Shown here piece by piece: positions 9,300 to 21,588 of a stretch of DNA of 24,765 nucleotides. Location: IMG/VR virus record IMGVR_UViG_3300028800_000300, positions 1-24,765 of that record; one strand, written 5' to 3'. Under the pieces are notes generated by a model. It saw nothing but the letters and a program-made list of their open reading frames with translations. It had not been told where the DNA came from and searched no databases. The translations under genes and the position numbers were made by a program. The DNA comes from a virus. Position 1 is the first letter of the stretch, and every line of letters starts with the position of its first letter.

Positions 9300-9701
9300 A
9301 TGTCAGTCGGTACTGCTCCCGCTCAGAATTCACGTCAGGCTCTCCAAGACGGCATTTGGCTCCGTGGCCTCGCCAACGGTCAGAACCGCAGTTATGTGAG
9401 TGGCATTACGGCCCATTCCGGCGGAACGAAGGCGGCGGCCTTCCAGCTTCCTGCCGCTGTATCCTTTATCGAAGTCGATACTGTCGCCGCCGATGCCGAC
9501 AGTGTACTGGCACCTCAAGCCACTAAAGGCTCGTCATTCGCCCTGTTTAACGCGAGTGCTCATACGCTGGATGTTTATGGGCGTGGTACCGATACGATCA
9601 ATCTCGCTGCCACGGCGACTGCATACGCGCTGACGACTGGCCAGACAGCGTTGTTCTTCTGTGCCAAGGACGGCTCTTGGGCGGCTGTTAAGACCGCCTA
9701 A
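9300..9701 (+). CDS. Beta-rich structural protein, module shared with 11283-11723
   Basis: A 133-residue protein, with AGGAG 7 nt before the ATG. The last 80 or so residues are beta-strand-like (SFALFNASAHTLDVYGRGTD, then TINLAATATAYALTTGQTAL, then FFCAKDGSWAAVKTA). They match, position for position in pattern, the C-terminal part of the protein encoded at 11283-11723. No enzyme motif and no signal peptide. Lying between the gp4-like and gp10-like genes, it is probably a virion component such as a decoration or tail-surface protein. The stop overlaps the gp10-like start by one base. Confidence 0.7.
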   Translation: MSVGTAPAQNSRQALQDGIWLRGLANGQNRSYVSGITAHSGGTKAAAFQLPAAVSFIEVDTVAADADSVLAPQATKGSSFALFNASAHTLDVYGRGTDTINLAATATAYALTTGQTALFFCAKDGSWAAVKTA

Positions 9702-11143
9702 TGCTCGTTCCGCTTACTTCGGGAGCCTATCAGGCGCGTTCGATAATTGCGAACGCACAGAGATGCGCGAACCTTTTTCCTGAGCTAAATCCTAAAGAAA
9801 CAAGCCCTCCCGTTCCCGTCACGCACTACCAGCGTCCCGGCAAAAAGCTTCTGTCCATTCCGCCGAAGCTTGGCGCCGGGCGCGGGCTCTATCGCGCAAC
9901 CAATGGCGATCTATACGCCACCATCGATGACACAATCTATTTTGTGAACAGCAATTTTGTCTTCACCGCTGTTGGTAATATAGGACACGGCACATCCATT
10001 GTCTCCATGGCTGATAATGGCCAGGATGTCGGAGATGAGATTTGCGTCGTAGACGGCTCATCCAATGGGTGGGTCATTACGATGTCTACTCACGCCTTCA
10101 ATCCGATTGTTGATGCGACTGGTCTATTCGTTGGATCGAACCGGGTTGATTATCTGCAAAGCTTCTTTCTGTTCAATGCTCCTGGGACGCCTTATTGGTA
10201 CATTTCACTTCCAAACAGCGTCACCTTCAACGCACTGGATGAGGCGTCGAAATCGTCCTACGCCGACAATATCAAGACACTCGGCGTCCGCCAGCGCGAG
10301 GTGTGGCTGATCGGTGAGTTGTCTACCGAGCCATGGTATCTCTCGGGCGCTCCTGATTTTCCATTCGAGGCCATTGCTTCGACCTTCGTTCCTTACGGTT
10401 GCATCGCCACCTATTCGATGATGTCGATTGATGTGTCCCTGTTCTGGCTGGGGCAGGATTTAAAAGGGCAGGGCATCGTCGTTAAATCGGACGGCTATAC
10501 GGCAAAGCGAATTTCTACCCACGCCATTGAACAAGAATTACAGAACTATTCAGACCTGACGGATGCTGTTGCAGGTTCTTATCAGGTTGACGGCCATACC
10601 TTTTATATCCTGTCGTTCCCAACGGCAGACAAGTCATGGGCTTATGACCTCGCCACAGACCAGTGGCATGAGTTGACATGGGCGGACAATGACGGCGTAG
10701 AGCATCGCGACCGGTGCCCATTTTACGCCCACGCCTATGGCAAGGTGATCGGACAAGATTGGGAAACCGGGCTGCTCTACGAGATCGACACCGGGACCTA
10801 CACGGATAATGGCCAACCGATCTATTTCCGGCGTGGTTTTCCGCACGTTCTCAGCGAGATGAACCGACTAACGCATTGGGCGCTCGTTGCCGATATTCAA
10901 TGTGGAACGACCACCGACAATGATGCCGAACCGCTCCTAAACCTGCGATGGAGCGATGATCGCGGTCAGACCTGGGGAGACCCGATCACTCAGACCATGG
11001 GTAAGATCGGTGAGTATCTCATCAGCCCGCAATTTCAGCGTCTCGGCATGGCTAGAGATCGAGTTTATGAGCTGTTCTGGTCCGAGAATGTCAAAACGGC
11101 GTTGAACGGCGTTTATATCGATGTCGAGAAATCAGGCTCATGA
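9701..11143 (+). CDS. P22 gp10-like packaged-DNA stabilisation / tail hub protein
   Basis: With 480 residues it matches P22 gp10 (472) in size and in position after gp4. The start VPLTSGAYQARSIIANAQRCANLFPELNPKE is the conserved opening of this family. The remainder is rich in short beta-strands with Trp, Tyr and Asp, ending in NRLTHWALVADIQCG, DDRGQTWGDPI and RVYELFWSENV, typical of the family's C-terminal beta domain. Gp10 forms a hexameric ring under the gp4 ring and helps close the portal. The ATG overlaps the upstream stop by one base, and the TGA overlaps the next start in ATGA. Confidence 0.88.
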   Translation: MLVPLTSGAYQARSIIANAQRCANLFPELNPKETSPPVPVTHYQRPGKKLLSIPPKLGAGRGLYRATNGDLYATIDDTIYFVNSNFVFTAVGNIGHGTSIVSMADNGQDVGDEICVVDGSSNGWVITMSTHAFNPIVDATGLFVGSNRVDYLQSFFLFNAPGTPYWYISLPNSVTFNALDEASKSSYADNIKTLGVRQREVWLIGELSTEPWYLSGAPDFPFEAIASTFVPYGCIATYSMMSIDVSLFWLGQDLKGQGIVVKSDGYTAKRISTHAIEQELQNYSDLTDAVAGSYQVDGHTFYILSFPTADKSWAYDLATDQWHELTWADNDGVEHRDRCPFYAHAYGKVIGQDWETGLLYEIDTGTYTDNGQPIYFRRGFPHVLSEMNRLTHWALVADIQCGTTTDNDAEPLLNLRWSDDRGQTWGDPITQTMGKIGEYLISPQFQRLGMARDRVYELFWSENVKTALNGVYIDVEKSGS

Positions 11144-11295
11144 CCAAAAAGCTTTATGGATGGGAAGAGAACGGAAAGTTCGTCCTGTCGCTGTTCAAAC
11201 GTATCGGCGGCAAGCCGATTAATGTCTATGACACTCAAGCGAAGGCCATAGAAGAGGCGGCCCGGCGCGGATTGCAGATTGAATGGCTTCTGTAA
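11140..11295 (+). CDS. Small protein (51 aa) between the gp10-like gene and the needle position
   Basis: ATG 11140 overlaps the gp10-like stop in ATGA, and the frame runs to TAA 11293-11295, overlapping the next gene by 13 nt. The product begins MTKKLYGWEENGKFVLSLFK and ends EEAARRGLQIEWLL: a short beta-hairpin-like half followed by an amphipathic helix. No known motif. The four-base overlap on one side and the overlap on the other are strong signs of a real, translationally coupled gene. Function unknown. A small tail-completion or chaperone role is possible. Confidence 0.65.
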   Translation: MTKKLYGWEENGKFVLSLFKRIGGKPINVYDTQAKAIEEAARRGLQIEWLL

Positions 11296-11723
11296 GCACC
11301 AGCCAGCCGCTTGCGATGCCTACGGCGGCTATGCCCGTCGTGGATCAGTCCGGCCTTCCATCGCAGCCCTGGTGGCGGTTCTTTTACGGCCTCTATACGC
11401 GGTCTGCGGCGAGCATTCCATATCTGGTGGCGACTGCGCTCACCGCAGCGGGGACTACGCAGGCTGATGCGCTGGCTCTTTCGTCGGAATGGAATGAAAT
11501 CACGTCCGCTCCGGCCGGTTCAGGGGTTGTTCTGAACGCTTTCGGTAGCGGCTTTGAGTCCACCGTGTTCAATGTTGGTGGGGCGACGCTGAAAGTCTAT
11601 CCCCCTGTGGGCTGCTCGATAGACGCTTTAGCTGCGAACACCGCATATTCGCTCGCAAACGGAAAATCTCAGGTGTTTTATCAACTGTCAGCGACGAAAT
11701 TCAGGTCGCTGCAACTCGGATAA
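11283..11723 (+). CDS. Tail protein at the needle position with repeated beta module
   Basis: A 146-residue protein. Residues 18-40 read PVVDQSGLPSQPWWRFFYGL; a PLVD-G-PSQPWWRFF-like segment recurs in tail-associated small proteins of short-tailed phages, as I recall. Residues about 60-146 form a beta module also found in the protein at 9300-9701 (VVLNAFGSGFESTVFNVGG, then ATLKVYPPVG, then LAANTAYSLANGKSQVFYQL). In P22 the gene after gp10 encodes the tail needle gp26. No long coiled coil like that of gp26 is visible, so this could be a short tail plug or fibre adaptor. Virion role inferred from position. Confidence 0.65.
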   Translation: MASVSTSQPLAMPTAAMPVVDQSGLPSQPWWRFFYGLYTRSAASIPYLVATALTAAGTTQADALALSSEWNEITSAPAGSGVVLNAFGSGFESTVFNVGGATLKVYPPVGCSIDALAANTAYSLANGKSQVFYQLSATKFRSLQLG

Positions 11724-11727
11724 TGCC

Positions 11728-11898
11728 ATGAAGAAAAGCTATAGTGCGAAAGCGGCTGCGAAGGGCAAGGATATCGGGAAAAAGGGCAAGAATTTCGGCA
11801 AGATCGAAAAGAAAGCCTCGAAAGAATATGGCAGCAAGGAAGCCGGCGAGAAAGTAGCCGGGGCCGTGCTGGCGAAGCTCCGAAAGAAGCGCCGCTAG
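11728..11898 (+). CDS. Lys-rich small protein (56 aa)
   Basis: ATG 11728 lies 4 nt after the previous stop, and TAG 11896-11898 lies 4 nt before the hydroxylase-like gene. The product begins MKKSYSAKAAAKGKDIGKKG and ends in AKLRKKRR. About a third of the residues are Lys or Arg, and there is no Cys, Trp or membrane segment. It resembles a small nucleic-acid-binding or histone-like tail. It could be an internal virion peptide that neutralises DNA, or a substrate of the two enzymes encoded next to it. Both ideas are inference. It is genuine by spacing and codon structure, but I do not recognise the family. Confidence 0.6.
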   Translation: MKKSYSAKAAAKGKDIGKKGKNFGKIEKKASKEYGSKEAGEKVAGAVLAKLRKKRR

Positions 11899-11902
11899 AC
11901 CG

Positions 11903-12436
11903 ATGAAGCACTTTTTCAAGGTCGGAGAGGTCAACGTTCAGCCTCTTCTGCACGCCATCCAGCGTCAGCCGGACTTGTGGAATAAGAACTCACTCCGGAC
12001 CAAGTTTCCTGGCACGCCGCATTCAGAGGCAGACGACATTTGGCTGTGGTTCAACTCCGAAAATTCGGACGATCCTGCCAATGATCGCGAGACGGTGCCT
12101 TATCCCGCTTGGGACTTCCTGCCACAAGCAAGGCAGATCGTGTTCGATCTGATGCGGGCTGTAGAAGCGTGCCAACTTGGGCGGGTCATCATTACGAAGC
12201 TTACACCCGGTAAGCAGATTACGCCTCATGTTGATGGCGGCGCACCCGCTCAATTCTACAAGCGCTACCAGATTGCGCTGCAAAGCCTACCCGGAGCCAT
12301 GTTCGCTATCGAGGACGAGAAGGTGAACTTCAAGTCCGGAGAAGTCTGGCTGATCAACAATCGTGCCGAGCACTCTGTTCAGAACAATAGCGCGGATGAT
12401 CGCATTGTGATGATTGTGGACGTAAGGCCGGGATGA
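11903..12436 (+). CDS. Asp/Asn beta-hydroxylase-like 2-oxoglutarate/Fe(II) oxygenase
   Basis: A 177-residue protein. The HxD pair of the iron site is in ITPHVDGG (H109, D111). The second His is in NNRAEHSVQN (H157), and the 2-oxoglutarate-binding Arg is in DDRIVMIVD (R167). This H-x-D...H...R spacing within a double-stranded beta-helix matches the aspartyl/asparaginyl beta-hydroxylase family (PF05118), whose known members hydroxylate Asp or Asn side chains. N-terminal residues 40-70 (EADDIWLWF, ETVPYPAWDFLP) are also typical of phage members. The stop overlaps the GNAT start in ATGA. Cytoplasmic, with no signal peptide. The likely target is a protein or small molecule, and virion-protein modification is attractive given the location. 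The family call is fairly sure; the substrate is unknown. Confidence 0.82.
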   Translation: MKHFFKVGEVNVQPLLHAIQRQPDLWNKNSLRTKFPGTPHSEADDIWLWFNSENSDDPANDRETVPYPAWDFLPQARQIVFDLMRAVEACQLGRVIITKLTPGKQITPHVDGGAPAQFYKRYQIALQSLPGAMFAIEDEKVNFKSGEVWLINNRAEHSVQNNSADDRIVMIVDVRPG

Positions 12437-12891
12437 TTTCAGCTCAGATTGAGAGTTTTGAGCACTGCATTTCCGAGCTTGTCGAGATATTCCCGCAACA
12501 TTGGGCAGAGCTTGCGCTGTTTCGCGGCAAGATGCCGCTTGCTCCTCAGTTCGATGAATACGTGAGACGGGAGCGCGAGGGTCAACTGTTCCTCGCCACT
12601 GTTCGATGGAATAGCAAAATCGTCGGGTACTACACTGCGCAGGTCGCTCCCGGTTTTCATTATCGAACGACGCTCACCGGCACGATGGACATGCTCTATA
12701 TCCTGCCAGAAGTCAGGGATCGCGGTCTTATAGTTCCTTTGATCAGGTGCGTTGAACGTGAATTGAGACGGCGCGGCGTTAAGCTATGGCATTCCGGCTT
12801 TAAGACGCTAAAGCCGAATGGGCTTCATGATCTTTACGCGAAGCTCGGATTTGTCCCCGCAGACACGTACCTTGCAAAGTGGCTCTCATGA
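12433..12891 (+). CDS. GNAT-family N-acetyltransferase
   Basis: A 152-residue protein with GNAT layout. After an N-terminal helical part there is a beta-strand pair (GQLFLATVRWNSKIVGYYTAQV). The acetyl-CoA region follows (MDMLYILPEVRDRGLIVPLI, then RCVERELRRRGVKLWHSGF), where R-D-R-G-L-I is the Q/RxxGxG/A-like pyrophosphate loop in variant form. The C-terminal HDLYAKLGFVPADT closes the fold (Y...K-L-G-F is a GNAT hallmark). It overlaps both neighbours by 4 nt (ATGA). The adjoining hydroxylase-like gene and Lys-rich peptide suggest one functional cassette. Small GNATs of this kind occur near phage structural genes, but their substrates are mostly unknown. Confidence 0.82.
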   Translation: MISAQIESFEHCISELVEIFPQHWAELALFRGKMPLAPQFDEYVRREREGQLFLATVRWNSKIVGYYTAQVAPGFHYRTTLTGTMDMLYILPEVRDRGLIVPLIRCVERELRRRGVKLWHSGFKTLKPNGLHDLYAKLGFVPADTYLAKWLS

Positions 12892-13718
12892 AACCAAACG
12901 TCTTCGATTGGCAAGAGTTTGAGCCGTCCTCGACTTGCCGCATTGCGGTGGCCATTGTCGGTGCTGGTGCACTCGGGGCCGGTGCCTCGATCTATGGCGC
13001 AAATGAAGCGGCCAATGCCCAGGAGAACGCCGCGAATACCGCGACCCAAGCGCAAATGTCGATGTTCAATACGGCGCAGGGCGAACTACAGCCATTCATT
13101 AACGCCGGCTCTGGTGAAATTCCACAACTGCAAAGCTGGCTTGACCCGAACAATGCATCTTCTCCGTTGTCGTCGCTGTTAAAGCTGACGACGCCGGGCG
13201 CGGACATGTCTTCAACGCTTGCGCAGACACCGGGCTATCAGTTCACCCTTCAGCAGGGCGAGAAGGCCACTCAGGACGCGCTTGCTGCGCGGGGTCTTGG
13301 AGGACCAGGCGGGGCTTTGGCCAAGGGGTCCGCTCAATACGCCGAAGGATTGGCCGGGAATACATGGCAGTCCGTCGTTAACGCTCTTCAAAACACTTTC
13401 ACGACTGGCGTTAATCCGATGCAAAATCTGGTCAATACGGGTGCCGGTGCTGCGGGCACTCTGACCGGTGCGGCGACCCAGACCGGTGGTCAAATCGGTT
13501 CCAATATTATCGGTGCCGGTAATGCGGCGGCTGGTGCCAGCGTTGCTGGTGCAAATGCCATTGGTGGTCTCGGCAATTCCGTGTCTAGCGCAGTGCTGTT
13601 GAACAAGCTGCTCGGCGGCGGAAGCACCGGCGGTCTGTATGGAAATGCCGCCGATGCTGGAATCGGCAATGGTGTAGGTACGGGCGGATTTAACTTCATG
13701 GACGCTGCGGCTCCATGA
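12888..13718 (+). CDS. Putative DNA-ejection / internal virion protein (gp7 position)
   Basis: I choose ATG 12888, which overlaps the GNAT stop in ATGA, over GTG 12879. The product has 276 residues. A hydrophobic, Gly/Ala-rich segment (RIAVAIVGAGALGAGASIYGA, about residues 18-38) may insert in the host envelope. It is followed by an Ala/Gln/Asn-rich helix. The segment QTPGYQFTLQQGEKATQDAL, then AARGLGGPGGALAKGSAQYA, is a signature of phage DNA-transfer proteins as I recall them. The rest is Gly/Ala/Asn-rich and low complexity. Position after the tail genes and before two further large helical proteins matches P22 genes 7, 20 and 16, whose products leave the virion and form the DNA conduit. 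Confidence 0.72.
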   Translation: MKPNVFDWQEFEPSSTCRIAVAIVGAGALGAGASIYGANEAANAQENAANTATQAQMSMFNTAQGELQPFINAGSGEIPQLQSWLDPNNASSPLSSLLKLTTPGADMSSTLAQTPGYQFTLQQGEKATQDALAARGLGGPGGALAKGSAQYAEGLAGNTWQSVVNALQNTFTTGVNPMQNLVNTGAGAAGTLTGAATQTGGQIGSNIIGAGNAAAGASVAGANAIGGLGNSVSSAVLLNKLLGGGSTGGLYGNAADAGIGNGVGTGGFNFMDAAAP

Positions 13719-13736: not shown

Positions 13737-14270
13737 ATGGCCGGAATAATGGATTTGCTGGCCGCCGCTAGAGGCGGACAGGCACCGCAGGGTGTTCCGC
13801 AAGCTGCTCCGCAGCAGGGCCAGCCACAGCAACCCGGAGCAAATCCGCTTGCTGCCTTGATGGCGCAACAGCAGCCACAGCAACCCGCGCCGACGCACGC
13901 ACAGACTGTCGCGGCCATACACAGGTTTGGCGAGATCAAGTCGGCGCTTCAGCCGGTCCTCTCTGATCCGAACTTGGGAAAGTCCAACATTCGTCCGAAG
14001 TTGCTGGATGCAGCGTCCAAACTCCTAGGTGCTAAGGTATTGTCCCTTCCGGAGATTATGAACAAAATAAAGGGATTGCCGGACGATCCAATTCAACAGA
14101 AGAACTTCGTCGAAGGCATCATCGATACGGCAAATAAGGCCGAGGCTGCGGTTCTCCAACATCATCTTAATGCCCCTCCTGAACCGGAGGGCACCGATCC
14201 ATGGTCGCGCGATAACCAGCAACAGCACATTGACGGCTTGATGAAGCATTATGGGGGCCGGAATGGCTGA
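13737..14270 (+). CDS. Putative virion or ejection-associated protein (177 aa)
   Basis: The N-terminal 55 residues are Gln/Pro/Ala-rich and contain a duplicated QPQQP-type block. The following 110 residues are helical (FGEIKSALQPVLSDPNLGKS, KLLDAASKLLGAKVLSLPEI, GIIDTANKAEAAVLQHHLNA). The end is a charged, hydrophilic tail. No enzyme motif. It lies 18 nt after the first ejection-type gene and overlaps the next by 8 nt. Probably an accessory of the ejected-protein group; family not recognised. Confidence 0.65.
   Translation: MAGIMDLLAAARGGQAPQGVPQAAPQQGQPQQPGANPLAALMAQQQPQQPAPTHAQTVAAIHRFGEIKSALQPVLSDPNLGKSNIRPKLLDAASKLLGAKVLSLPEIMNKIKGLPDDPIQQKNFVEGIIDTANKAEAAVLQHHLNAPPEPEGTDPWSRDNQQQHIDGLMKHYGGRNG
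13821..13886 (+). repeat. 15-nt direct repeat within the Gln/Pro-rich segment
   Basis: CAGCCACAGCAACCC occurs at 13821-13835 and again at 13872-13886. The copies are 51 nt (17 codons) apart, so the repeat is in frame and both copies encode a QPQQP-type block. It looks like a small internal duplication in a low-complexity linker. Confidence 0.7.
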
Positions 14271-15507
14271 TGCAGTCGATACGTCCATCTATAAAAATGT
14301 TGGGGCCGGCAATACGTCTATGTCGCCGCTGCAAGTGCTGCAACTTGTGGCTACTTCTAACCTTACAAAAATGCAGCAGCAAGAAATCAATGCCAGAAAT
14401 GGGCTGGCTGAAGCATATGCGGATAATCCAAACCCTGATTTATCAACTTTAGGCCGGCTGGCTGGATATCAGGCCGGCCCGGCGATTAATCAGCAGGTTA
14501 TAAACACGACTGCCCAATCGCAGCTTCACCAGGCACAACAAGACATCGTGCAGCGCCGTATCGGTGCTATTTCAGCGATGAAAAATCCTACACTTGACGA
14601 TCTGACGAATTTAGTTGTGCAGGCGGCGCACGATAACCCGTCTATTCCAGCCCAGATGTGGACCGACCGCCTCGATGAAGCACGAGCTATCGCGGGCGCT
14701 AATCCCAATGCATTAAAAAGTTGGGGTGTAAAGCAGGCTGTGACTGCGCCGAGCTTTGACGCTACCAAAACAACGAGCGGGCCTCCTGGACCCGAAAACG
14801 AACCGACCAACATCACGACAGCCGCACAACTACAAAATATCACTCAACCCGGCGGTATGCAGGCTGGCCTTTCTCCAGCCGTAACGGCTGCTACGGCCGC
14901 CGCCGGGCAGGCGTCCGGTGAGGCTAGCGCAAAGGCTGTCGGTGCTGCTGGTAACTATCGGTCAAGCATCACGCCCCTTACGAAGATCGTTCATCTTCTG
15001 GATACGGTCGGGCCGACGGGGCAGGGTATCGGCACTGAAGCGACAAACTCGATCAAGAATCTCGGCGTCGGGCTAGGGCTTCTGAAACCAGACACAACGC
15101 TGCCGATTGAGGAACTTAAGAAATACTACACGCAAAACGTCCTTCGAAACGCGGACATTTCATCAACAGATAAAATGGTGTCGGCTTTCCACGGGAATCC
15201 GAATATCGACTTGAATACAGCAAGCGCCAGCGACCTCGCTAAAACCGATCTGGCGCTTAGAAGGATGTCGCAAGCGCAAGCTCTTGAGGGGGCAGAACAG
15301 CCGAAGCAAAATTATCAAGCATGGGCCGCAAAATTCAACAATAACCAAGACCCGGCAGCCTACGGTTTCGATCTCATGTCGGCGGCCAACCAGCGAAAAT
15401 ATCTTGCTTCGCTAAAGCCTGGGAGCATTGAGTCACAGAGATTCCGAAACTCGCTGACTTTGGCTCACAAATGGCAACTTCTAGAAAAGCCTAATGCCGG
15501 ACAGTAA
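14263..15507 (+). CDS. Putative DNA-ejection protein (gp20 position)
   Basis: Starting at ATG 14263 (MADAVDTSIYKNVGAGNTSM) the product has 414 residues and overlaps the previous gene by 8 nt; ATG 14251 would add four residues. The protein is almost all helical and rich in Ala, Gln, Asn and Thr, with no Cys. There is an Ala-rich segment near 200-240 (SPAVTAATAAAGQASGEASA) and a conserved-looking helical C-terminus (LKPGSIESQRFRNSLTLAHK). No catalytic motif. Its size, composition and place before the hydrolase-bearing gene fit P22 gp20-like ejection proteins, which assemble in the envelope. Weak sequence signatures leave the exact homology open. Confidence 0.65.
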   Translation: MADAVDTSIYKNVGAGNTSMSPLQVLQLVATSNLTKMQQQEINARNGLAEAYADNPNPDLSTLGRLAGYQAGPAINQQVINTTAQSQLHQAQQDIVQRRIGAISAMKNPTLDDLTNLVVQAAHDNPSIPAQMWTDRLDEARAIAGANPNALKSWGVKQAVTAPSFDATKTTSGPPGPENEPTNITTAAQLQNITQPGGMQAGLSPAVTAATAAAGQASGEASAKAVGAAGNYRSSITPLTKIVHLLDTVGPTGQGIGTEATNSIKNLGVGLGLLKPDTTLPIEELKKYYTQNVLRNADISSTDKMVSAFHGNPNIDLNTASASDLAKTDLALRRMSQAQALEGAEQPKQNYQAWAAKFNNNQDPAAYGFDLMSAANQRKYLASLKPGSIESQRFRNSLTLAHKWQLLEKPNAGQ

Positions 15508-17452
15508 TATCTCCCCGTCCGACTTGGATATGATCGCGAGGACGGTCATAGGAGAGGCTGGAAACCAGCCGCCTATCGGGCAGGCTGCTGTCGCTCATGT
15601 CATTCTCAATAGGATGAACAGCGGCAAATGGGGCAATGACGCAGCTAGTGTCGTATTGGCACCGAAGCAGTTTGAGGCTTGGTCAGACCACCCTGACCAA
15701 TTGCGCTCAATCCCGCAAAATTCCGCTCAATACCAACGTGCTCTTGAAATCGCCAGACAGGCAGCCTCGGGACAGACTGAAGACCCAACTGGCGGCGCGA
15801 TGAATTTTGCCAATGTCGATACGGTCCAGAGGCGCGGAAATCAAAGCGCGATGGGCTGGATTAACGGCATGACGAATGTCACGAAAATAGGTGACCATAC
15901 ATTCGGAAATGCGGCAGGTTCGCCGCCAGCATCCAACACGCAGCCCCCGCAAATGAGCGATGCAGATATCATTCAGCAATATCTTAAGCCGGGCGCTGAC
16001 GTGCCTGCGGCACAGGTGCCTCCATCTGCACCGACAGTGCCGGCCCCACCAGAGGATGTTTCTCAAATCTATTTGAAGCCGGTTGATACGACGCAACCGC
16101 CAGTCAAAAAGAAGTTCACATGGGAAGACACTTGGCCAGTCCAGATCGCCAAAACCATCGCGAGCGGGCTTACCTATCCGGGCGATGTGTATCAGGGGAA
16201 GGCGACTGTCCCTCAATCTGATGGCATAAATGGTGAAGACACCTCTGGCATGGGGCGTCTCATGGCTCTTTCCGGCGTGGTTGGAACAGGTGCGATTCCC
16301 AGCGTGGCGAGCGCATCGGCACCCCTTATTGACCCGGCAACAGCTCAGCTTGCGAAGACCGCGAGAGACGTATTCGGCATTCCTGTTCGTGGGGGGCAAA
16401 TCTCGCAAAGCCCGACCGTCAACTATCTTGATAGTGTGCTGAAGGAAAAACCGTTCTCCGGCTATGCCGCGAATGTTGCTGACCAGCATACTGCATTCAA
16501 CCAGAATGTTGCAAAAGCCATTGGCGAGGACGCCGACAAGCTAACTCCTGATGTGATGGATGCGGCGAAAAAGCGTCTCGGCGCTCAGTATGAGGACATC
16601 GCGTCTAAGAGTACGATCAATGCGGATAATCAGTTTGGGTCGGACCTGCACCAGATCGCCAGCGATGCAAATACTGTTTTAGCGCCAAATGAGCGATCGA
16701 TCATTCATGGTCAAATTAGTAACGTAATGGATAAAGTCCAAGATGGACAGATCGACGGAAAGACGTATCAGGCGCTCATTAAGACAGGCTCCCCTCTGGA
16801 TCGCGCTACGAAATCAAACGACTCGAACGTCAAATACTATGCCGGCCAGGTGAAGCAATCCCTTTTGGATGCGCTTGGCCGATCTGTATCACCAGACCTA
16901 CAATCCCAGCTTCAGCAGACGAATTCTCAATACAAGGCAATGAAGACCATTGAGGATTTGGTCGAGAAGGCCCCTACAGGCGACATCAGCCCAGCTCTAT
17001 TGATGGGAGCGGTGCGCAAGTCCTATCCCGGAATGGCATATGGAAATGGTGGGCCACTGGCTGATCTAGCCAGGGTCGGACAGCAATTCCTGAAAGAGCC
17101 GCCAAATAGCGGGACTGCAAGCCGGCTCAGTGCAATGAAACTTCTGGGTCTTGGTGGCGCAAGTGGCATCGAAGCCGGGCTTGCATTCCACGACCCAATT
17201 CTCGCGGCCAAGCTTGGTGCCATTGCAGCAGTTGCTGGAGGAGCGAAGGCCGCAACAAATGCGGGTATCGGTTCAATTCTTCGCAGCAACTGGTACGCGA
17301 ACAGATTGATAAATTCGTCACTGCCGGGTCAGACGCCGAACGCTCTCCAGAAACTCATGAGCAGTGGCGCAATCTCTTATAATCCTGCCGCCGCGCCGCT
17401 CTTGCCATTTCCTCAATACGTACAGCCGCAAGAGGCTCAGCCTGCCCGTTAG
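15494..17452 (+). CDS. Ejection protein with N-terminal SleB-type peptidoglycan hydrolase
   Basis: A 652-residue protein. Residues about 10-140 form a SleB/Hydrolase_2 (PF07486) domain: IARTVIGEAGNQPPIGQAAV, then AHVILNRMNSGKWGNDAASV, then VLAPKQFEAWS, with E21 as the probable catalytic Glu, and later GGAMNFANVDTVQ. SleB enzymes cleave glycan strands in peptidoglycan. Residues 150-230 are a Pro-rich linker. Residues about 290-520 are long helices rich in Gln, Lys and Asp. Residues 545-595 are hydrophobic and Gly/Ala-rich (LGGASGIEAGLAFHDPILAA, KLGAIAAVAGGAKAATNAGI) and could insert in a membrane. This matches a T7 gp16- or P22 gp16-like virion protein that opens the cell wall locally at entry. 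The ATG overlaps the previous gene by 14 nt. Confidence 0.82.
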   Translation: MPDSNISPSDLDMIARTVIGEAGNQPPIGQAAVAHVILNRMNSGKWGNDAASVVLAPKQFEAWSDHPDQLRSIPQNSAQYQRALEIARQAASGQTEDPTGGAMNFANVDTVQRRGNQSAMGWINGMTNVTKIGDHTFGNAAGSPPASNTQPPQMSDADIIQQYLKPGADVPAAQVPPSAPTVPAPPEDVSQIYLKPVDTTQPPVKKKFTWEDTWPVQIAKTIASGLTYPGDVYQGKATVPQSDGINGEDTSGMGRLMALSGVVGTGAIPSVASASAPLIDPATAQLAKTARDVFGIPVRGGQISQSPTVNYLDSVLKEKPFSGYAANVADQHTAFNQNVAKAIGEDADKLTPDVMDAAKKRLGAQYEDIASKSTINADNQFGSDLHQIASDANTVLAPNERSIIHGQISNVMDKVQDGQIDGKTYQALIKTGSPLDRATKSNDSNVKYYAGQVKQSLLDALGRSVSPDLQSQLQQTNSQYKAMKTIEDLVEKAPTGDISPALLMGAVRKSYPGMAYGNGGPLADLARVGQQFLKEPPNSGTASRLSAMKLLGLGGASGIEAGLAFHDPILAAKLGAIAAVAGGAKAATNAGIGSILRSNWYANRLINSSLPGQTPNALQKLMSSGAISYNPAAAPLLPFPQYVQPQEAQPAR

Positions 17453-21072: not shown

Positions 21073-21588
21073 CTATTTGATCTGGCTGTGAACGGCAGGT
21101 GAGCCAATGGCTCGGCTATTCGACGGCACGTCTTTGTTGACGAATGAGAGGGCGCCGACTGCAACGCGGTCGCCAATCGTGACACCGCGCGCAATGACGG
21201 CATTGGGACCGATGAAGCAGTTGCTCCCGATCTTGGTCGGGGATTTATCGTAAGGCTCTATGCCACCGCTCAGCGCCCATTTTACGGAATCGTGGGAATA
21301 GATTTGCGCCCCGGCGCAGATGGTGCAGTTGTCACCTATTTCTAGGCCGCCAGAACCGTCGAGGACGACGTTCGGCCCGACCCATGTGTTCTTGCCGACT
21401 TTGACATCGCCAATGATGAGAACACTGTCGTAACAGGAAGTCCCTTCTCCAAAACCATACTCCTGCGCGTTGCGCCAACGATCCGTCACTAGATCGCCTA
21501 GCGGCACTCGACGCTTAAACTCCGCCATCTTCTTTGACTGAAGCGACCGTTGCGCATCAAGCAATAGCTCAATCCACTTCGCTGACAT
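21073..21588 (-). CDS. Left-handed beta-helix (hexapeptide) acetyl/acyltransferase
   Basis: A 171-residue protein on the strand opposite to the late genes. Hexapeptide turns are visible from residue 58: LIIGDVKVGKNTWVGPNVVL, then LEIGDNCTICAGAQIYSHD, then TKIGSNCFIGPNAVIARGVT, then IGDRVAVGALSFV. H99 in IYSHD is the probable catalytic His of WbbJ/maltose-acetyltransferase-type enzymes, and the closing GSPA motif is typical. Such enzymes add acetyl groups from acetyl-CoA to sugars of O-antigen, capsule or nodulation factors. Residues 1-50 form an N-terminal helical extension. Neighbouring the fibre genes, it may alter the surface glycan that the phage recognises (seroconversion-like) or block superinfection; this is inference. 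It converges on the glycine-rich gene with 21 nt between stops. Confidence 0.82.
   Translation of the reverse strand: MSAKWIELLLDAQRSLQSKKMAEFKRRVPLGDLVTDRWRNAQEYGFGEGTSCYDSVLIIGDVKVGKNTWVGPNVVLDGSGGLEIGDNCTICAGAQIYSHDSVKWALSGGIEPYDKSPTKIGSNCFIGPNAVIARGVTIGDRVAVGALSFVNKDVPSNSRAIGSPAVHSQIK

Follow-up and report, generated by a model that had tools for sequence, protein, structure and literature searches.

The window, by which we mean the whole 24,765-base virus record, contains the late operon of a P22-type podovirus, with genes in the order terminase large subunit (TerL), portal, coat, head-tail adaptor, Hc3 (gp10 type), small genes and ejection genes. Just upstream of TerL, a 306-aa ORF on the minus strand (500 to 1420) weakly resembles SAM-dependent methyltransferases (Methyltransf_24, E=0.005). 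A second minus-strand gene, opposite the late genes (21073 to 21588), encodes a left-handed beta-helix (hexapeptide) acetyltransferase of the WcaF/NeuD kind, possibly a moron that modifies surface polysaccharide.

On the plus strand, Hc3, a tail/head-closure protein of the P22 gp10 type (9701 to 11143; phrog_578, E=4e-97), provides the upstream virion context. It is followed by a small protein without an assigned function (11283 to 11723), a homologue of which lies immediately 5' of the hydroxylase gene in locus L023. Then come a 56-aa Lys-rich peptide (11728 to 11898), a 177-aa 2OG-Fe(II) oxygenase of the Asp/Arg hydroxylase family PF05118 (HYD, 11903 to 12436, assigned by profile, model and alignment) and a 152-aa GNAT-family N-acetyltransferase (GNAT, 12433 to 12891; PF00583). 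The ejection block begins with ejA, encoding a P22 gp7-like DNA ejection protein (12888 to 13718; phrog_598 'DNA ejection', E=2e-23). It continues with a protein of unknown family (13737 to 14270), a large protein that is probably an ejection protein from its P22 gp20 position (14251 to 15507), and an ejection protein that carries a cell-wall hydrolase domain at its N-terminus (15494 to 17452; PF07486, phrog_26400).

The preliminary description of this DNA had proposed that the peptide, HYD and GNAT form one protein-modification cassette, and the three ORFs and their spacing are as it gave them. The peptide and HYD genes are separated by a 4-nt gap, and the HYD/GNAT and GNAT/ejA frames each share 4 nt in an ATGA overlap, with start codons assigned by rule. 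Within the cassette, no promoter or terminator signal exceeded those of shuffled sequence.

The peptide is about one-third basic, as had been noted (30% Lys, 36% Lys+Arg), and a search of 50,697 phage records gave no match to it. In IMG/VR we found 68 relatives of the peptide, and 0/68 had HYD in the same locus (flank up to 6 kb); on the three contigs that carry both, the peptide lies ~8 kb upstream of HYD. The window's closest relative among the matches listed (L015/L223) has an unrelated Lys-rich peptide in the slot (phrog_16160 / DUF6582-like). Most relatives have no Lys-rich peptide before HYD, and a Lys/Arg-rich ORF was found upstream of HYD in at most 3 of 122 loci. This distribution indicates that the peptide is independent of the enzymes, which the preliminary description had allowed as an alternative, and we discarded it as a cassette member. 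The idea that it is a substrate of GNAT or of both enzymes draws on adjacency in the window only, and given the distribution we regard it as extremely improbable; the Lys-rich peptide is an unrelated passenger, a neighbour outside the conserved cassette. A family of ~112-aa proteins precedes HYD in 54/122 loci (L016 2967 to 3302, L017 4687 to 5025, L019 5666 to 6001, and others), and may be a second candidate substrate of the two enzymes, or a partner.

Active sites of HYD and GNAT

HYD matched PF05118 with E=2.4e-15 and 57.2 bits, passing the curated cut-off of 22.6. Its structure model (pLDDT 95.6) is a double-stranded beta-helix, and the best solved match was L-proline cis-4-hydroxylase (4p7w; E=6e-10, TM 0.73), with proline 3-hydroxylase and human AspH also among the best solved structures. 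The HxD, Arg-x-His/Gln and His...Arg elements of HYD align with those of 4p7w and AspH. The HxD...H...R residues, recognized earlier in the window's protein, are retained throughout: the metal ligands H109, D111 and H157 are invariant in 66/66 aligned relatives, R121 is unchanged in 66/66, and R167 in 65/66. R121 and R167 align to the region of AspH R688 and R735, which are studied variants according to PDB titles and which we infer to be 2OG ligands. From this alignment, R167 is likely the 2OG-binding Arg of HYD, together with R121. Judged from its sequence, HYD is a catalytically intact PF05118 2OG-Fe(II) oxygenase.

The common fold and the HxD...H...R active site are shared with L-proline cis-4-hydroxylase, human AspH and LpxO. 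Unlike these enzymes, HYD is a short stand-alone 177-aa domain in a virion operon. It lacks the substrate-binding TPR domain of AspH, and it scores far under the cut-offs of the NCBIfam models for LpxO and for non-proteinogenic amino-acid hydroxylases.

GNAT matched PF00583 with E=1.2e-7 and 32.5 bits (curated cut-off 20.7, passed). In the CoA region, which had been described as kept, Arg95 is invariant in 65/65 aligned relatives, but the loop is a variant. Compared with the canonical Q/R-x-x-G-x-G/A, Gly98 is found in 16/65 relatives and Gly/Ala100 in 60/65; this sixth position is Gly in 54/65, and in the window, where the loop reads RDRGLI, it is Ile, so that the second Gly is missing. Other polar residues invariant in 65/65 are H23, Y43, R58, Y66, H76, Y77, D86, R114 and K124. 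Catalytic residues are thus kept in the homologues aligned (66 for HYD and 65 for GNAT), with the variant CoA loop of GNAT as a caveat. The closest solved profile match of GNAT was N-alpha-acetyltransferase 30, and this match is too weak (E=1e-4) to name a substrate.

Distribution of the HYD-GNAT pair

Alignments of HYD and GNAT, scanned against IMG/VR, identified relatives in at least 515 and at least 570 loci, respectively. The best 80 of each were analysed, so the sample leans to close relatives. Some contigs were common to the two sets, and 109 distinct HYD sequences were obtained once near-duplicates had been removed; conservation over at least 109 distinct sequences excludes chance for both HYD and GNAT.

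Among these best matches, GNAT lies directly downstream of HYD in 84/85 HYD loci, the remaining locus being cut off, and HYD lies directly upstream in 72/74 further GNAT loci. In the two exceptions (L287 and L288), GNAT occurs without HYD and the upstream tail gene is complete. The HYD and GNAT frames overlap by 1 or 4 nt in 113/158 loci, and the P22 gp7-like ejection gene is next downstream in nearly all HYD-GNAT loci. Hence the co-occurrence foreseen for three genes holds for two of them: HYD and GNAT are strictly paired and tied to the ejection gene, and the peptide is not part of the association.

The pair is also found in prophage-like bacterial loci, in all five close relatives there (Sphingomonadales, Sphingopyxis, Sphingobium, a Hyphomicrobiales MAG and Achromobacter). 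Distant PF05118 matches in bacterial genomes (e.g. L139) had no accompanying GNAT. Two isolates, Pseudomonas phage PfAn1 and Limnohabitans phage DC33, have the pair adjoining ejection or virion genes, and the PfAn1 genes and DC33 ORF8 are members of the same HYD-GNAT pair as in the window. In DC33, the pair is located between TerL and the connector, beside a 107-aa protein that is not recognised as an ejection protein. The DC33 record (L002, PQ492659.1) carries the taxonomy line Inoviridae, yet its genome is 39 kb long and has genes for a terminase large subunit and a head-tail connector, so this assignment looks wrong.

Either gene can occur alone with the slot kept. GNAT alone is seen in L004, L006, L287 and L288, and in Zobellviridae-type phages; HYD alone is seen in L003 and in MW202665, and in MW202665 it lies immediately 5' of a DNA-ejection gene. 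HYD and GNAT distances showed a weak correlation (rho 0.24). Distance-matrix co-evolution of HYD, GNAT, ejA and Hc3 was discarded as evidence, since correlations were low (0.14 to 0.50) and loci redundant.

Phage papers treat such genes one at a time and give them a metabolic or an uncertain role (PMC12195039, PMC11288001, PMC6918029), and the published DC33 text mentions the hydroxylase only, as metabolic potential, with no virion-linked pair. We found no description of the HYD-GNAT pair in open-access literature. The two genes might accordingly be auxiliary metabolic genes (AMGs), with HYD hydroxylating and GNAT acetylating a free amino acid or small molecule and host metabolism or resistance being altered. 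This fits the closest solved structure of HYD, which is the hydroxylase of free L-proline, as well as the metabolic or auxiliary label given to such genes (PMC12195039, PMC11288001; for GNATs, PMC6918029). However, a fixed slot is not expected of AMGs, and HYD and GNAT have one, between the tail genes and the ejection genes, with frames that overlap. We therefore regard a metabolic role as improbable.

The slot before the ejection genes

In T7, the gp13 gene precedes the internal virion proteins, and in P22, the gp14 gene precedes gp7. T7 gp13 (PF11090, 'internal virion protein A' or probable scaffold) has the same position as the window GNAT, after tail tubular B and before the internal virion proteins. 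A podovirus GNAT has been assigned to T7 gp13 from position and domain (PMC6775973), and a 'putative acetyltransferase, DUF2833' has been given at this position (PMC7326022). SIO1-like cobaviruses and Pseudomonas phage YA3 also have GNAT genes in the slot.

For P22 gp14 (gene 14, L008 8911 to 9366 / L025), which lies directly upstream of gp7 much as the window GNAT precedes the phrog_598 gene, we predicted a structure from 20 sequences (pLDDT 86). The best solved matches of the model were spermidine (SpeG-type) and other GNAT acetyltransferases (E=4e-9, TM 0.78), and its viral matches included phage GNATs, a DUF2824 protein and an 'internal virion protein A'. P22 gp14 (PF11039 DUF2824, 'virion stability factor' or 'head morphogenesis') is therefore predicted to have a GNAT fold. 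Neither phage has a hydroxylase here: there is none between T7 genes 12 and 13, and none at this position in P22.

The window GNAT had no PF11090 or phrog_308 match to the T7 gp13 family (hhalign probability at most 0.3%), and no sequence or profile similarity to the P22 gp14 family (PF11039 / phrog_651). Small and larger alignments alike gave no homology to either. The agreement is limited to fold and position: the window GNAT would share the place and the fold of gp13 and gp14, and its sequence does not support membership of either family. Given this lack of profile similarity, GNATs that are not related to each other may occupy the slot. It may hold other divergent GNATs too: a weak resemblance to T7 gp13 (phrog_308, E=0.04) and to an acyl-CoA N-acyltransferase family (E=0.02) was seen for the slot proteins preceding the ejection gene in Xanthomonas phage PBR31 (L011 9776 to 10147) and Pseudomonas phage PAE2 (L009 9362 to 9769). 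In VvAW1 and DSL-LC05, tail fibre-type proteins are in the slot before ejA, so the slot is not always enzymatic. The GNAT half of the pair is thus a known kind of gene at this position, and its obligate hydroxylase partner appears to be undescribed in the open-access literature.

The comparison with T7 raises the possibility that the pair are assembly factors that modify nothing, GNAT acting like T7 gp13 as a scaffold or chaperone for internal proteins and HYD being mainly a binding partner. In line with this, Pfam names T7 gp13 a 'probable scaffold' (P22 gp14 is entered as of 'unknown function'), and for virions of phiPsa17, a T7-like phage, the detected proteins shown include gp14 to gp16 but not gp13 (PMC4517105). 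The variability of the GNAT CoA loop at position 98, together with the missing second Gly in the window, points the same way. Against it, the invariant residues of HYD and the ten polar residues of GNAT conserved in 65/65 relatives argue for catalysis over a scaffold role, which we thus consider rather improbable.

Some other phages are known to inject enzymes along with their DNA, and the pair sits inside the ejection block. Both enzymes might be packaged, enter the new cell together with the ejection proteins and there work on host targets, for instance by weakening a defence or commandeering a host protein. This sits poorly with the T7-like phage, whose detected virion proteins, as shown, do not include T7-type gp13 (PMC4517105), and we consider it quite unlikely.

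A possible role in maturation of the ejection apparatus

A link to the ejection apparatus is suggested by the fixed position, by the overlap with ejA and by loci in which HYD or GNAT stands alone in the slot; chemistry is suggested by the invariant active site of HYD. Taken together, these favour modification of a virion precursor. We are fairly confident that HYD and GNAT are a morphogenesis- or ejection-linked pair. That they act on the ejection apparatus during assembly by modifying a virion precursor is, in our estimate, evenly balanced, and for covalent modification of a virion protein as such the chances appear somewhat short of even.

In the model that we propose, HYD and GNAT would be a single functional unit of the virion-morphogenesis operon, presumably produced late, linked to the gp7-like ejection protein by the overlapping frames, and acting while the ejection apparatus is assembled. 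GNAT would occupy the slot of T7 gp13 and P22 gp14, both of which are tied to virion assembly or stability and not to metabolism, and HYD would bring a probably active Fe(II)/2-oxoglutarate hydroxylase into this slot. The likeliest target would be a virion precursor, either the ejection proteins or neighbouring small tail proteins. The chemistry would be hydroxylation of one side chain and acetylation of one amine; the Lys-rich peptide would play no part. Against modification of a protein, the nearest solved relative of HYD, as matched by the structure model, acts on free L-proline. The place of the pair in DC33, the lack of profile similarity between GNAT and gp13 or gp14, and the weak HYD-GNAT distance correlation also count against the model.

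A glycine-zipper-like stretch (MVAAAVIGSAVVGG) opens the ejA-type proteins downstream of the pair. A search of ejA for a residue specific to HYD-carrying phages turned up conserved Pro, Lys and Asn positions among the HYD-carrying loci, none of which could be singled out. Some ejA proteins have an N-terminal extension of ~15 to 30 aa that ends in Cys at or beside the start of the glycine-zipper stretch. It was observed in the window (...SSTC-RIAVAIVGAG) and in L222, L223, L242, L267, L268, L290, L292, L146, L149, L170, L187 and L189. From P22 gp7, a 20-aa N-terminal piece is removed by the host OpdA, so the Cys extension of ejA may mark a site of processing or modification.

Neither T7 gp13 nor P22 gp14 has so far had a well-defined molecular function. 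Should the slot that they occupy be one for GNAT-fold proteins, coupled in a large phage group to an intact 2-oxoglutarate hydroxylase, the role of gp13 and gp14 becomes testable by virion mass spectrometry, and a set of genes would pass from the list of auxiliary metabolic genes to virion morphogenesis. The broadest form of the proposal is that, in hundreds of P22-type podoviruses, a dedicated gene pair matures the DNA-ejection machine by hydroxylating and acetylating an ejection or tail-core protein; we hold this to be unlikely, though not markedly so. If true, the two-step hydroxylation and acetylation would be an undescribed step of phage maturation. It would also suggest that T7 gp13 and P22 gp14 belong to this step, as enzymes or as remnants of them.
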